NCBI RefSeq assembly: GCF_027359925.1 | Contig: NZ_CP114767.1 | Location: 806,001-870,000, forward strand | DNA length: 64,000 nt | Direction of reading: 5' to 3' | From: Hymenobacter canadensis | GTDB lineage: Bacteria; Bacteroidota; Bacteroidia; Cytophagales; Hymenobacteraceae | Shown here: positions 11,841 through 16,332 of the stretch, piece after piece | Numbering within the stretch: the first letter of the stretch is position 1 | Layout of the letters: each line of letters opens with the position of its first letter | Notes under the pieces: generated by a model | What the model was told of the DNA's origin: nothing | Seen by the model: the letters and a program-made list of their open reading frames with translations, nothing else | Database searches by the model: none | Translations under genes and position numbers: made by a program

Positions 11841-11871
11841 TTGCGGGGGCAGCAATCCGGTTTTACCTTTG
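11841..11871 (+). promoter_or_regulatory. Promoter of the SAM riboswitch transcript
   Basis: TTG at 11841-11843 and TACCTTTG at 11864-11871, 20 bases apart, match the Bacteroidota -33 TTG / -7 TAnnTTTG pattern. Transcription would begin near 11876, some 24 bases before the riboswitch P1 stem. The 11503-11840 stretch before it shows no gene that I can support. Confidence 0.75.
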
Positions 11872-11899
11872 CCCCATCAATTCTTTCTAGCCCGAAGGA

Positions 11900-11999
11900 T
11901 TGTTTTTATACAGAGGCGCTGAGAGACAGGCTCGATGAAGCGTCGGCAACCACCCGGAACCCTCCGGAACGGTGCCAATTCCTGACCATATAAAAACAA
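11900..11999 (+). promoter_or_regulatory. SAM-I (S-box) riboswitch
   Basis: The closing stem P1 is perfect over 11 bp: TTGTTTTTATA (11900-11910) with TATAAAAACAA (11989-11999). Inside are the S-box core strings CAGAGGCGCTGAGAGACAGG, CTCGATGAAGCGTCGGCAACC and GGTGCCAATTCCTGAC in the right order. P3 is the CCGGAACCCTCCGG-type hairpin at 11954-11968. S-box RNAs sense S-adenosylmethionine and turn off sulfur and methionine genes. No intrinsic terminator directly follows P1, so control is more likely by antitermination farther down or at translation of the leader ORF that starts seven bases later. Confidence 0.92.
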
Positions 12000-12005
12000 G
12001 TTGCC

Positions 12006-12113
12006 GTGGACGCTTCCAACAACCTCCTGCATTCAACCTCCGCTTTTTTGGCTCCGGCTGCCGCGTTGCGGCTGGCGGGCCGGGGCTGTTGTTGCTGTTG
12101 TTGTCGGGCGTAG
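12006..12113 (+). CDS. Candidate polycysteine leader peptide
   Basis: A 35-codon ORF with a GTG start six bases after the end of the SAM-I P1 stem. The peptide begins MDASNNLLHSTSAFL and ends GRG-Cys6-Arg-Ala-stop; the six Cys codons (TGT TGT TGC TGT TGT TGT) span 12087-12104. A run of one amino acid's codons just before the stop of a leader ORF is the hallmark of ribosome-stalling attenuators, here suggesting cysteine or Cys-tRNA sensing in series with SAM sensing. It is too short for standard gene finders. Against it: the run can also be read as a GTT/TGT low-complexity stretch, there is no clear ribosome-binding site, and other frames are open through it. No homologue could be searched. 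Confidence 0.5.
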   Translation: MDASNNLLHSTSAFLAPAAALRLAGRGCCCCCCRA

Positions 12114-12133
12114 CTAGCCCTTTCTCTGTTTTC

Positions 12134-12165
12134 GCGGGTACGCACCCGCCGACGTCGCACGTCGG
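12134..12165 (+). promoter_or_regulatory. Tandem hairpins after the leader ORF
   Basis: GCGGGT-ACGC-ACCCGC (12134-12149) is followed at once by CCGACGT-CGC-ACGTCGG (12149-12165), 20 bases past the leader stop. These are candidate attenuator or anti-attenuator stems. The remaining 12166-12425 leader is GC- and T-rich with no gene I can support, so the 5' untranslated region is about 550 bases long. Confidence 0.45.
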
Positions 12166-12425
12166 TCGGCTGCTGCGCTAAGCGGCTTCGCGCCCGCACC
12201 TCCTCTTTTTCTCGGATTGTCACCCGATGGCCGGGCCGGGCACAGGCTTTGCGCTCCGGTTGGCGGCCTGCGGTGGCTGCTGATTCGCTCGTTGCGCGGT
12301 TTGCGGGCGGCGTAATCGGCTAGGCCGGACTTCCGTTCCTGCTTTGTTTTCTCCCGGGAGCCGGTGGCGTTGCGCTGCTGCCGGCGCCGTTTCGTTTTTC
12401 ATTTTCCGTCTTTTTGCTTCTGACT

Positions 12426-13415
12426 ATGTCATCCCTCCAAAAGCCCATTGGTATCTATTTCGAGCACCCCGAGTGGTTTAAGCCGCTGTTTGCGGAGCTG
12501 GACCGCCGCGGCCTGCCCTACGAGAAAATCGACGCCGCCCATCACCTGTTCAACCCCTCGGAAAAGGAGAGCCGCTACAGTCTGGTGGTGAACCGCATGA
12601 GCTCGTCGGCGTACCTGCGCGGGCACGGGCAGGGCATCTTCCACACGGCCGGCTTTGCCACGCATTTGGAGCGTATCGGCACGCGCATCATCAACGGCTC
12701 GGCGGCCACGGCCATCGAAACGAACAAGGCTCGTCAACTGTCCCTGTTCGAGTTGCTGGGGCTGAAATACCCGGCCTCGCGGGTCATCAACCACGCCTCC
12801 CGGGCTGTGGACGCAGCGCGCGAGCTGCGCTTTCCGGTGGTGGTGAAGGTGAACATCGGGGGCAGCGGCGCTGGTATCATCCGCTTCGATACGCCCGAGG
12901 GCCTGCAGGCCGCCGTCGACAACAACCAGATCGATCTGGGTATCGACCAGACGGCGCTGGTGCAGGAGTACGTGACGCCCCGCGGCGGCCACATTCACCG
13001 CGTGGAAATGCTCAATGGTAAGTTTCTCTACGCCATGAAGGTGTATACCACCGGCGAGAGCTTCAACCTTTGCCCGGCCGAAATCTGCCAGATTCCGGAA
13101 GAGCAGTCGGCCGAGTTCTGCCTGACCGAAGCCCCGAAAAAGGGCATCCAGGTGGAAGCCTTCACGCCGCCCGCCGAAGTAATCGAAGCCGTGGAGCGCA
13201 TTGTGGAGGCCGCCAAAATCGACGTGGGCGGCATCGAGTACCTCATCGACGACCGCACTGGCGACGTGCTGTTCTACGACATCAACGCCCTGTCCAACTT
13301 CGTGGCCGACGCCGTGAACGTGGTCGGCTTCGACCCCTACGCCCGCTTCGTGGACTACCTGGAGTCGCAGCTGCCGGTGGCGGCGGTGGCTCAGGAGGAA
13401 GTAGCCACGGCGTAG
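12426..13415 (+). CDS. RimK-like ATP-grasp ligase under SAM/Cys leader control
   Basis: A 329-residue ATP-grasp enzyme, a cytosolic carboxylate-amine ligase fold that activates a carboxylate as acyl phosphate. Visible parts are the N-terminal preATP-grasp region (IGIYFEHPEWFKPLFAELDR), the central ETNKARQLSLFELLG, the ATP-binding FPVVVKVNIGGSGAGIIRF and the metal-binding DVLFYDINALSNFVAD. RimK relatives add glutamate or make small peptides; the substrate here is not evident. It is the first gene after the SAM-I riboswitch and polycysteine leader and precedes a flavin monooxygenase. A role in a sulfur-containing peptide or sulfur scavenging is therefore inferred. The ATG at 12426 is preferred over the ATG four codons upstream. 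Confidence 0.8.
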   Translation: MSSLQKPIGIYFEHPEWFKPLFAELDRRGLPYEKIDAAHHLFNPSEKESRYSLVVNRMSSSAYLRGHGQGIFHTAGFATHLERIGTRIINGSAATAIETNKARQLSLFELLGLKYPASRVINHASRAVDAARELRFPVVVKVNIGGSGAGIIRFDTPEGLQAAVDNNQIDLGIDQTALVQEYVTPRGGHIHRVEMLNGKFLYAMKVYTTGESFNLCPAEICQIPEEQSAEFCLTEAPKKGIQVEAFTPPAEVIEAVERIVEAAKIDVGGIEYLIDDRTGDVLFYDINALSNFVADAVNVVGFDPYARFVDYLESQLPVAAVAQEEVATA

Positions 13416-13444
13416 GCCGACGATTCATTCAAGCAAACAATCAG

Positions 13445-13554
13445 AACGTCATGCTGAGCGAAGGCGCAGCCGCAGTCGAAGCATCTCTACCGCTTCGTTG
13501 CAGTAGCAATCTAACGAAGCGGTAGAGATGCTTCGGCAAGCTCAGCATGACGTT
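13445..13554. repeat. Intergenic inverted repeat (GTCATGCTGAGC family)
   Basis: AACGTCATGCTGAGCGAAGG (13445 on) pairs with CTTCGGCAAGCTCAGCATGA through GTT at 13554; the inner arms CATCTCTACCGCTTCGTT and AACGAAGCGGTAGAGATG match exactly. The left arm has an extra GCGCAGCCGCAGT segment. It lies between the ATP-grasp and monooxygenase genes. Confidence 0.85.
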
Positions 13555-13578
13555 CTATCAATCTCAACTCAACGAACC

Positions 13579-14598
13579 ATGAAATTTGGCTATTGGATGC
13601 CCATATTCGGGGGCTGGCTGCGCAACGTCGAGGACGAGCAGATGCCCACCGACTGGAGCTACGTAAAGCAGCTGGCCCAGCGCAGCGAGGCCCTGGGCTA
13701 CGACCTGACGCTGATTGCGGAGCTCTACCTGAACGACATCAAAGGCACCGAGGCGCCCTCGCTGGAGGCCTGGAGCACGGCCGCCGCGCTGGCCGCCGTG
13801 ACCGAGCAGTTGGAAATTATGGTGGCCGTGCGCCCCACCTTCCACAACCCCGCGCTGCTGGCTAAGCAGGCCGCCAACATCGATTTGATTGCGCCCGGGC
13901 GGTTGTCGCTGAACGTGGTGTCGTCGTGGTGGAAGGACGAGGCCACCAAGTACGGCCTGCACTTCGAGCAGCACGACGACCGGTACGCCCGCACCCGCGA
14001 GTGGCTGGACGTGGTGACCAACGTGTGGAAGCAGGACCATTTCAGCTACGACGGCAAGTACTACCAAGTGGCCGACAACGTGCTGCAACCCAAGCCCGCC
14101 AAAGCCCCGTTCCTGTACGCCGGCGGCGAATCGGAAGCGGCCAAGGACCTGATTTCGACGCAGTGCGACGGCTACGTGATGCACGGCGACTCGCCAGAGC
14201 TGATTGGGGCCCGCATTGCCGATATGCGCCGCCGCCGCGAGCAGAAAGGGTTGCCGCCGATGAAATTCGGCGTGGCCGGCTACACCATTGTGCGCGACTC
14301 GGAGCAGGACGTGAAAAAGGAGCTGGACCGCATCACCAACGTGAAGGCCTCGGCCTCGGGCTACGGCAACTACCAGCAGTGGCTGGCCGGCACCCAGCTG
14401 GAGCAGCAGGTGTCGTTGCAAGACTACTCGGTGTCCAACCGTGGCCTGCGCACCGGCCTGACCGGCACGCCCGCCCAGCTGCAAGACCGGATTGGCGCTT
14501 TCGAGGCTGTAGGCGTTGATTTTTTCCTGTTGCAGGCCAGCCCGCAGCTGGAAGAAATGGAGCGTTTCTCCGAATCTGTTATCCAGGTAGTGGCGTAA
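13579..14598 (+). CDS. LLM-class flavin-dependent monooxygenase (SsuD/SfnG-like)
   Basis: A 339-residue luciferase-like TIM-barrel enzyme that would use reduced FMN and oxygen. The opening MKFGYWMPIFGGWLRNVEDE, the RLSLNVVSSWWKDEA segment and the GESEAAKDLISTQCDGYVMH stretch fit the branch containing alkanesulfonate (SsuD) and dimethylsulfone (SfnG) monooxygenases. Those release sulfite or sulfinate from organosulfur compounds when sulfate is scarce. Placement downstream of a SAM-I riboswitch agrees with a sulfur role, but the substrate is not known and an F420 or non-sulfur substrate is possible. The ATG at 13579 fits the conserved N-terminus. No flavin reductase is adjacent. Confidence 0.85.
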   Translation: MKFGYWMPIFGGWLRNVEDEQMPTDWSYVKQLAQRSEALGYDLTLIAELYLNDIKGTEAPSLEAWSTAAALAAVTEQLEIMVAVRPTFHNPALLAKQAANIDLIAPGRLSLNVVSSWWKDEATKYGLHFEQHDDRYARTREWLDVVTNVWKQDHFSYDGKYYQVADNVLQPKPAKAPFLYAGGESEAAKDLISTQCDGYVMHGDSPELIGARIADMRRRREQKGLPPMKFGVAGYTIVRDSEQDVKKELDRITNVKASASGYGNYQQWLAGTQLEQQVSLQDYSVSNRGLRTGLTGTPAQLQDRIGAFEAVGVDFFLLQASPQLEEMERFSESVIQVVA

Positions 14599-14620
14599 CT
14601 TGGTTGCCTGAAATTCGCCT

Positions 14621-14713
14621 GTCATCCTGAGCTTGCGAAGGATCTTATCACGTCGAAACGAGTCGTCAAAGGATAACTCGAACGTGATAAGGTTCTTCGC
14701 AAGCTCAGGATGC
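14621..14713. repeat. Intergenic inverted repeat (GTCATCCTGAGC family)
   Basis: GTCATCCTGAGCTTGCGAAG (14621-14640) pairs with CTTCGCAAGCTCAGGATG near 14695-14712. An inner stem TTATCACGTCGAA / TTCGAACGTGATAA-like is also present. Related to repeats at 13445 and 26648. Confidence 0.85.
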
Positions 14714-14857: not shown

Positions 14858-14868
14858 TCTCCCCTTTC

Positions 14869-16332
14869 ATGATCAGAAAATCACTGGAACTGCTGCGGCA
14901 GGAGGCGGCCGAAACCGGCGCCGGAACGCTTAAACGAAGCCTGAACGGCTTCAACCTCATTACCATCGGCATCGGCGTGATTATCGGGGCGGGCCTGTTC
15001 TCGCTCACCGGCATTGCCGCCGCTAATAATGCCGGCCCGGCTGTCACGCTCTCGTTTGTAGTGGCGGCGGTGGGCTGCGCCTTTTCGGCGCTGTGCTACG
15101 CCGAGTTTGCCTCCATGGTGCCCGTGGCCGGCTCGGCCTACACCTACGCCTACGCCACCATGGGCGAGCTTTTCGCCTGGATTATCGGCTGGGATTTGGT
15201 GCTCGAATACTCAGTGGGCGCGGCTACGGTGGCCATCAGCTGGTCGCAATACCTGCTCAAGTTCCTGAGCAAGTACGGCATCATCGTGCCGCCGCAGCTG
15301 GTGATGTCGCCGTTTGAAACGGCCACGCTGGCCGATGGCAGCGTGGTGCACGGCTTCGTCAATATTCCGGCCATGCTGATTGTGCTGGCCATTACTATGA
15401 TTATCATTCGCGGCACGTCGGGCTCGGCGTGGTTTAATGCGCTGGTGGTTACGCTAAAGGTGGCCGTGGTACTAGTGTTTATCGCGCTGGGCTGGCAGTA
15501 CATCGATCCGGCCAACTACCAACCCTACATTCCGCAGAATACCGGGGTGTTCGGCGAGTTCGGCTGGAGTGGGATTTTGCGCGGGGCAGGCGTGGTGTTC
15601 TTCGTGTTCATCGGCTTCGATATCGTGGCCACCATGGCCCAGGAAACCAAGAATCCGCAGCGCAACATGCCCATCGGTATCATCGGCTCATTGCTGATCT
15701 GCACCGTGCTGTTCGTGCTGTTCGGGCACGTCATGACCGGTCTGGCCAACTACACCGAATTCAAGAACAGCGCCGCGCCGGTGGCTATTGCCATTGAGAA
15801 AACGCCCTACGCCTGGCTGTCGTCGGCCGTGATTCTGGCTATCATCATCGGCTACACTTCCGTGATTCTGGTGGATTTGCTGGGTCAGAGCCGGGTGTTT
15901 TTTAGCATGGCAAAAGACGGCCTGCTGCCCCCGGTTTTCGCCCGCATCCACGAGCGGTTCCGTACCCCCCTGCAGTCGAACCTGCTGCTGGGGCTGTTCA
16001 TTGCGCTGTTTGCCGGCTTCGTGCCCATTTCGGTGGTGGGTGAGATGACGAGCATCGGCACGCTGCTGGCATTCGTGATGGTGTGCATCGGCATCCTGAT
16101 TATGCGCAAGCGCGAGCCCGACGCCCCGCGCGGGTTCCGCACGCCCTGGGTGCCGCTGGTGCCCATACTGGGCATCCTCACCTGCGTGGTGATGATGCTG
16201 GCGCTGCCTTGGGAAACGTGGCTGCGGCTGGCCGTGTGGCTGGCTATCGGTCTGGCCATCTACTTCGGCTATGGTCGCAAGCACAGCAAGCTGGGAAATC
16301 CGGGAAAAGCTGATGAGTTGAAGGAAGTATAA
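14869..16332 (+). CDS. APC-family amino acid permease
   Basis: A 487-residue inner-membrane transporter with about 12-14 membrane helices of the amino acid-polyamine-organocation (cationic amino acid transporter-like) superfamily. The hallmark TIGIGVIIGAGLFSLTGIAAA in helix 1 carries the substrate-binding glycines. FVFIGFDIVATMAQETKNPQ (helix 6 region) and RVFFSMAKDGLLPPVFARIH follow. The ATG at 14869 is favoured because it follows the terminator hairpin directly and matches the family start. Since it follows the riboswitch-controlled genes it might take up a sulfur amino acid, but the intervening palindrome and terminator make that a weak inference. Confidence 0.88.
   Translation: MIRKSLELLRQEAAETGAGTLKRSLNGFNLITIGIGVIIGAGLFSLTGIAAANNAGPAVTLSFVVAAVGCAFSALCYAEFASMVPVAGSAYTYAYATMGELFAWIIGWDLVLEYSVGAATVAISWSQYLLKFLSKYGIIVPPQLVMSPFETATLADGSVVHGFVNIPAMLIVLAITMIIIRGTSGSAWFNALVVTLKVAVVLVFIALGWQYIDPANYQPYIPQNTGVFGEFGWSGILRGAGVVFFVFIGFDIVATMAQETKNPQRNMPIGIIGSLLICTVLFVLFGHVMTGLANYTEFKNSAAPVAIAIEKTPYAWLSSAVILAIIIGYTSVILVDLLGQSRVFFSMAKDGLLPPVFARIHERFRTPLQSNLLLGLFIALFAGFVPISVVGEMTSIGTLLAFVMVCIGILIMRKREPDAPRGFRTPWVPLVPILGILTCVVMMLALPWETWLRLAVWLAIGLAIYFGYGRKHSKLGNPGKADELKEV

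Follow-up and report, generated by a model that had tools for sequence, protein, structure and literature searches.

Riboswitch and cysteine-rich uORF ahead of an ATP-grasp gene

We analysed a stretch of 64,000 nucleotides (nt) from Hymenobacter canadensis (contig NZ_CP114767.1, positions 806,001 to 870,000 of the forward strand; hereafter the window, numbered from its first letter), in which a SAM-I (S-box) riboswitch, sensing S-adenosylmethionine (SAM), is followed by an upstream open reading frame (uORF) that ends in a run of cysteine codons, ahead of genes for an ATP-grasp protein, an LLM-class (luciferase-like) flavin monooxygenase and a permease (Table 1). A preliminary description of this locus had read a promoter, the aptamer, the uORF and tandem hairpins from the letters alone and had proposed dual sulfur control, with SAM sensed by the RNA and cysteine sensed by ribosome stalling that refolds the RNA downstream. 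Its anatomy was largely borne out. The aptamer matches the Rfam covariance model RF00162 over its full length (70.9 bits against a curated cut-off of 44.4, E 1.4e-14), and the A/U-rich P1 helix pairs 11900-11910 with 11989-11999 over the 11 base pairs (bp) described, with 100% complementarity. The GTG of the 35-codon uORF with its six-Cys end stands six bases past P1, and the promoter, which we take to be of Bacteroidota type, is readable as TTG-N20-TACCTTTG. The Rfam search of the window returned one further family, the small signal recognition particle (SRP) RNA.

Table 1 Features of the leader and the operon in the window
Feature	Position	Strand	Details
Promoter, Bacteroidota-type (presumed)	11841..11871	+	TTG 11841-11843, N20, TACCTTTG 11864-11871; read from sequence
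SAM-I riboswitch	11900..11999	+	Rfam RF00162 match 11903-11996
uORF initiation region, predicted (-20 to -1)	11986..12005	+	includes P1 3' strand 11989-11999
uORF	12006..12113	+	GTG start, 35 codons, TAG stop 12111-12113; leader peptide end GRG-CCCCCC-RA
Cys codon run x6	12087..12104	+	TGT TGT TGC TGT TGT TGT
Spacer, uORF stop to ATP-grasp ATG	12114..12425	+	312 nt; candidate termination zone; hairpins 12134-12149, 12150-12164
ATP-grasp protein (RimK-like), first regulated gene	12426..13415	+	329 amino acids (aa); PF08443 above cut-off
LLM-class flavin monooxygenase	13579..14598	+	PF00296; nearest SfnG, TIGR04021 241 bits, under cut-off 383
Amino-acid permease	14866..16332	+	third gene; family match

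To follow the leader through the orthologous operon, we took 40 Hymenobacter or Solirubrum loci (L040, L041 and L047-L052 lie outside that count) and located the SAM-I core by pattern within 900 nt upstream. The core lies 355-563 nt ahead of the ATP-grasp gene in 36 of the 40, the others being left out because their upstream DNA is too short (L006, L016) or holds no SAM-I core (L025, L028). All 37 riboswitch-bearing leaders (36 relatives and the window) keep a uORF with an in-frame Cys cluster at nearly the same position; 36 start with GTG and one with ATG, their lengths are 26-40 codons, and the adjacent Cys codons fall within the last 16 residues. None of these 36 relatives has lost the run or its frame, a loss that the preliminary description had counted as evidence against its own proposal. 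The uORF opens 13-18 nt, mostly 17, from where the P1 3' strand begins, while ORF length varies and the body sequence drifts; a constant start and Cys cluster around a drifting body is the pattern that would be expected of a leader peptide. Upstream, TAnnTTTG occurs 37-39 nt before the aptamer in 35/37 leaders, with TTG placed 18-23 nt ahead of it in 30/37. The combined pattern TTG-N18-23-TAnnTTTG is found between aptamer and gene in 0/37 leaders, so that this promoter pattern gives no sign of a transcription start past 12113, the other finding that had been named as a danger to the proposal.

Codon-level signals are of unequal weight. When 13 uORFs of equal length are compared, synonymous changes make up 0.26 of the differing codons in frame, as against 0.18 and 0.16 out of frame, a weak signal that goes a short way towards the synonymous variation predicted earlier; the Cys run itself is almost invariant as DNA in these 13 close leaders. 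The 37 Hymenobacter uORFs use TGT and TGC in a ratio of 160:40, whereas 34 long ORFs from the window have 15:112 (p 6e-36, an overstated value because the uORFs are related), and thus favour what is the rarer Cys codon in the ORFs of the window. In a wider uORF set the ratio is 172:79, against 20:48 in the downstream genes.

Recurrence beside sulfur genes in two orders

The combination is not local. The genome holds four SAM-I elements, three of which carry a uORF of this type, ahead of the ATP-grasp gene, cysH and metY; the cysH leader encodes a peptide ending in HGCCGMRGMGCCQG, and the metY leader an ATG-initiated peptide ending in GCCGACCCCC. The fourth element, ahead of metH, is followed by no uORF. 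Here metH and metY were named from sequence, and the cysH and metY families were confirmed on homologues. By eye the three peptides share no N-terminal sequence, and a 53-aa uORF peptide from the same genome, used as a protein query, retrieved no homologue.

We then read SAM-I elements at large, seeking ORFs of this type beside them, with a rule that calls for ATG or GTG 5-14 nt past the aptamer, an ORF of 6-70 codons and adjacent Cys in the last 16 residues. In a sample of the order (the first order; 59 genomes searched, 110 SAM-I matches in 46 genomes, all 110 read), 44/110 elements conform to the rule, against a mean of 0.32 and a maximum of 3 in 100 rounds of dinucleotide shuffling, or a mean of 1.45 and a maximum of 4 when the start codon was kept. 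Because the rule was fixed after these data and nine loci of a second order had been viewed, the test is carried by 85 further elements of the second order and by thiamine pyrophosphate (TPP) riboswitch and metH controls. Of these 85, 23 conform (shuffles: mean 0.28, maximum 2; 94/96 second-order matches were read in all). TPP riboswitch loci of the first order, taken one per genome (30 from 70 matches), gave 0/30, a result that did not change when starts at 0-60 nt were admitted. A phylum-wide sample added 4/89 among the matches listed, all from one family of the second order, which belongs to the same class. Throughout, p values are inflated by the relatedness of the sequences.

The resulting 48 rule matches (44 and 4 elsewhere) are specific to their frame, the other two frames giving 1 and 1. 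Cys is the last residue in 30/48, the longest Cys run is 2-7 and the peptides are 7-55 aa long. Four doubtful matches (L105, L183, L186, L225) are kept in the 44 and the 48 and were dropped from the analyses of the initiation region, of spacer length and of hairpins near P1, which use 44 of the 48 leaders. The arrangement occurs in 12 family labels of the order, or ten if f15 and f20, each resting on a single doubtful match, are set aside. Four second-order leaders with an A/U-rich P1 fall outside the rule yet have uORFs, three of them Cys/Met-rich near the end (L330, L335, L367) and one with a single Met there (L328).

When every uORF behind an A/U-rich P1 was considered, with no Cys requirement, the last ten residues of 58 first-order uORFs showed a 7.1x excess of Cys and a 4.8x excess of Met, with Gly next at 1.4x; for 26 uORFs of the second order the values were 6.0x, 6.0x and, for Gly, 1.8x. 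Strong enrichment is therefore limited to exactly the two sulfur amino acids, and the combination of SAM-I with a Cys/Met uORF recurs in two orders of bacteria.

Gene targets were assigned by a motif scan of the next 1.5 kb. Across all samples, 0/74 metH leaders carry the arrangement (second order 0/26), compared with 47/90 metY leaders (first order 21/31, second order 22/26, phylum sample 4/33). Single examples scored above the NCBIfam cut-off as O-acetylhomoserine sulfhydrylase and phosphoadenylylsulfate reductase, and single examples below it resembled NirA/sulfite reductase, an NhaC-type transporter and O-succinylhomoserine sulfhydrylase; by the look of their sequences, further targets include TonB-type receptors and cysteine-desulfurase-like, YceI-like and permease genes; no family was matched at E 1e-20 by 60 residues of a cysteine-desulfurase-like protein. 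The arrangement thus stands mostly ahead of genes that import or incorporate sulfur and spares homocysteine remethylation (metH), a pattern that fits the expectation that Cys supply should not matter for remethylation. In L148 and L163, a 16-codon uORF (end CGRMCCY) lies between SAM-I and a cysteine-desulfurase-like gene.

Two explanations that deny the uORF a regulatory role can be weighed on these data. One is that its product is a small Cys-rich protein that serves some purpose of its own, such as metal or persulfide binding, and that the riboswitch simply regulates ORF and operon. Cys clusters suit metal or sulfur binding, and the start and cluster kept in 37/37 leaders would fit; among the ORFs beside SAM-I, however, the N-terminal parts show no evident kinship from leader to leader, not even inside a single genome, the uORF body shows weak purifying selection, the length range is wide and the rarer Cys codon is preferred, and we consider this explanation improbable. 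Less probable still is ordinary SAM-I control with a uORF that does nothing and arises merely from low-complexity T/G repeats or an RNA element: the near-invariance of the Cys run as DNA in the close clade would suit it, but not the frame specificity, the joint enrichment of Cys and Met, whose codons are unrelated, or the absence of uORFs after metH and TPP elements.

Riboswitch-uORF junction and proposed downstream control

The uORF goes with one type of P1: 69/101 elements with a TTTATA/TATAAA P1 are followed by it, against 2/183 others (classes defined after inspection). In the 48 rule matches the start codon lies 6-14 nt past the aptamer, 9 nt being the commonest distance, so that a separate expression platform would have little space; the nearest element downstream of SAM-I is the uORF start itself. 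Of 44 uORF leaders, 37, 34 and 28 have A at -14, -13 and -12, and given the start spacing these bases belong to the P1 3' strand. Flavobacterium johnsoniae belongs to a phylum without Shine-Dalgarno sites; A at -14 to -11 marks its initiation regions, A at -12, -13, -6 and -3 accompanies strong translation, and where bases near the start are paired, translation tends to be weak (PMC6847099). The P1 3' strand thus appears to double as the A-rich initiation signal of the uORF. Since it sits in that region, the two devices would be fused, not merely in series as the preliminary description had them, and bound SAM should keep the leader peptide from being translated.

What happens beyond the uORF stop is less plain. 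The stop lies 94-394 nt ahead of the gene (median 165, 44 leaders), and a spacer of at least 94 nt excludes coupling by overlap in these leaders. The median C-over-G skew is 0.31 in uORF bodies and 0.24 in spacers (46 leaders), while 29 metH leaders stand at 0.05 and genes at 0.06; for body and spacer, respectively, the excess has p 4e-11 and 4e-10 against genes and p 3e-7 and 2e-6 against metH leaders. RNA that loads Rho is C-rich and G-poor, and rho is present in the genome. In tnaC a stalled ribosome shields the RNA, and with a Cys/Met codon run beside the stop a stalled ribosome would do likewise here.

The classical alternative is hairpin attenuation, in which a stalled ribosome switches hairpins after the stop and a hairpin with a U-tract terminates transcription. 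In some Hymenobacter leaders a downstream GGGUA is able to pair with the stop codon, and more hairpins come after it; the window has a terminator-like structure at 12372-12387, and terminator-like hairpins that reach -8 kcal/mol or better are present in 21/46 spacers. RNAalifold, applied to the post-stop regions of 14 close Hymenobacter (folds were compared within this group rather than aligned across families), found 9 pairs at -2.5 kcal/mol, five of which join the stop codon and GGGUA sites; these are mostly invariant, and just one of the nine shows change on both sides. From stop to gene, moreover, the energies barely beat shuffles (p 0.047, 46 leaders) and 8/46 spacers contain no such hairpin, whereas the hairpins of 27 metH leaders do exceed shuffles (p 0.0009). 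A general intrinsic terminator, which we sought, is on these figures weak at best. Of the earlier claims, the tandem hairpins can be read in the spacer of the window, but the predicted fold of its entire leader is no more stable than that of shuffled sequence (z 0.27, 57/100 shuffles as good), and downstream refolding by stalling has found no general support. We hold hairpin attenuation to be a tentative and rather unlikely explanation. Rho-type attenuation is favoured over it because the leaders are C-rich and G-poor, rho is present, the codon run lies by the stop and the hairpins are near shuffle level; the untranslated, SAM-bound leader would then be the default off state.

Taken together, we think it probable that the SAM-I aptamer and a translated leader ORF act as one compound sulfur attenuator. 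The dual control proposed earlier emerges strengthened in this form, with Met joining Cys and the two sensors fused. At high SAM, P1 would be closed, the uORF untranslated and the leader RNA bare, so that transcription would stop ahead of the sulfur genes. At low SAM, a ribosome would start the uORF and reach the terminal Cys codons (in relatives, also Met codons). If charged tRNA-Cys or tRNA-Met is plentiful, the ribosome would finish and leave, and transcription would still end early; if such tRNA is scarce, the ribosome would stall beside the stop and shield the RNA, and RNA polymerase would continue. Expression would accordingly require low SAM together with low Cys/Met. A broader reading, which we regard as evenly balanced between right and wrong, is that leader peptide translation is the direct output of the riboswitch: SAM would gate entry to the uORF and the terminal codons would read charged tRNA-Cys and tRNA-Met, the gate opening only if SAM, Cys and Met are scarce together, as a standard control of sulfide incorporation and sulfur scavenging, not of metH, in at least two Bacteroidota orders.

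Several observations weigh against the compound attenuator. The Cys rule leaves out 32/101 elements with an A/U-rich P1 and 43/90 metY leaders, 29 of these 43 lying outside the two orders' own samples, and the orthologous ATP-grasp genes of two Hymenobacter loci (L025, L028) have no SAM-I core within 900 nt by pattern. In folding predictions, the unpaired probability of the start region changes little, from 0.70 without the P1 5' strand to 0.61 with the aptamer, and this region carries as much structure as its shuffled counterparts (mean z 0.07, p 0.54). In the window, 12000-12016 can pair with aptamer positions 11937-11950 over 14 bp with a bulged GTG, which could form a SAM-free competitor fold that hides the start codon. 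Terminator-like hairpins within 100 nt of P1 occur at -8 kcal/mol or better in 10/44 leaders of the uORF class, more than in shuffles (p 0.008), and the C-over-G excess is no more than suggestive of Rho sites. Given the modest effect of P1 in silico, the argument for gating rests on anatomy and on the stabilisation of P1 by SAM, which is established for SAM-I.

Some neighbouring observations belong here. A/U-rich P1 elements outside the Cys rule (L135, L136, L116, L099, L171, L179 and others) often precede a short ORF with ATG 7-10 nt past P1, which would fit an older or more widespread control of uORFs by SAM, with the sensing of Cys later or narrower. A conserved anti-aptamer strand over the GTG was dropped as a general feature, since GTTGCC follows P1 in 18/37 orthologous leaders and the longest uninterrupted pairing is 5-9 bp in the 37. 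Beside CTTATC-type elements, 11/36 have terminator-like hairpins within 100 nt of P1, exceeding shuffles (p 0.0009). In L025 and L028, the ATP-grasp gene directly follows a SusD-looking gene.

Known systems and neighbouring genes

SAM-I is among the best-studied riboswitches, and short uORFs are easily left unannotated. The mycobacterial polycysteine ORF is reportedly leaderless, to judge by a title of Canestrari from 2020; a leaderless start is not expected here, where a conserved motif predicts a promoter about 135 nt ahead of the GTG.

Each half of the arrangement, SAM-I and Cys-codon leader ORFs, is known. The fusion was not found in the open-licence literature searched: no earlier report of SAM-I with a Cys-rich uORF appeared among the matches listed from open-licence PubMed Central papers, which does not imply its absence from print. 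The comparisons below draw on the available parts of each source. The polycysteine leaders of the mycobacterial cys operon likewise have a short ORF with a Cys run near its stop before cysteine genes, and no conserved hairpins, and their authors in 2005 suggested Rho with a weak prediction; in contrast to our case they belong to another phylum, and the available part mentions no riboswitch (PMC1262725). As a further difference, translation attenuation has since been reported for them (PMC13236596, citing Canestrari 2020). In Rhodobacterales, uORFC-8-2 before cysS is a tandem-Cys uORF with predicted ribosome-mediated attenuation, but with a predicted intrinsic terminator and, in that part of the source, no mention of a SAM aptamer (PMC8632094). 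The Salmonella mgtA and mgtCBR leaders also join an RNA sensor to a codon-rich short ORF, respond to multiple signals and, in mgtA, involve Rho; their signals are Mg2+, ATP and proline instead of SAM and Cys/Met, and the sensor is not an S-box (PMC3641672). A Xanthomonas SAM-I that senses uncharged initiator tRNA shares the second, tRNA-based sulfur amino acid input, but its RNA binds the tRNA directly and the abstract names no leader ORF (PMC7270179). Finally, the tandem SAM-I and adenosylcobalamin (AdoCbl) riboswitches of Bacillus clausii metE place a methionine gene under two inputs, though by two aptamers that each control termination alone (PMC2258182).

It is probable that more than one sulfur metabolite is monitored by a single leader before expression of a sulfur gene begins. 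If the recurrent fusion is real, it would account for the integration of three sulfur signals by one RNA and show why SAM alone would govern metH, unlike metY and cysH, and how a riboswitch can function in bacteria without Shine-Dalgarno sites.

The ATP-grasp protein scores 63 bits against TIGR00768, under the cut-off of 143, and its closest named relatives are from Hymenobacter (98% for L005, order Cytophagales). The monooxygenase gene lies 3' of it in 46/48 loci. The two are also adjacent in another phylum, in Brevundimonas/Caulobacteraceae (L047-L050, L052; identity 44-46% and 59-60%, respectively), and a pattern search found no SAM-I core upstream in L047-L050. The two form a conserved enzyme pair, perhaps for a sulfur substrate. 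Because permease-like genes in two further genomes of the genus (G005, L108; G031, L106) follow a SAM-I and Cys uORF of their own, a sulfur amino acid is the suggested substrate of the permease. Between the ATP-grasp and monooxygenase genes, 13441-13575 holds a long inverted repeat (GAACGTCATGCTGAGC... with its complement), probably a repeat dispersed among intergenic regions, and the DNA at 14620-14700 is also repeat-like.

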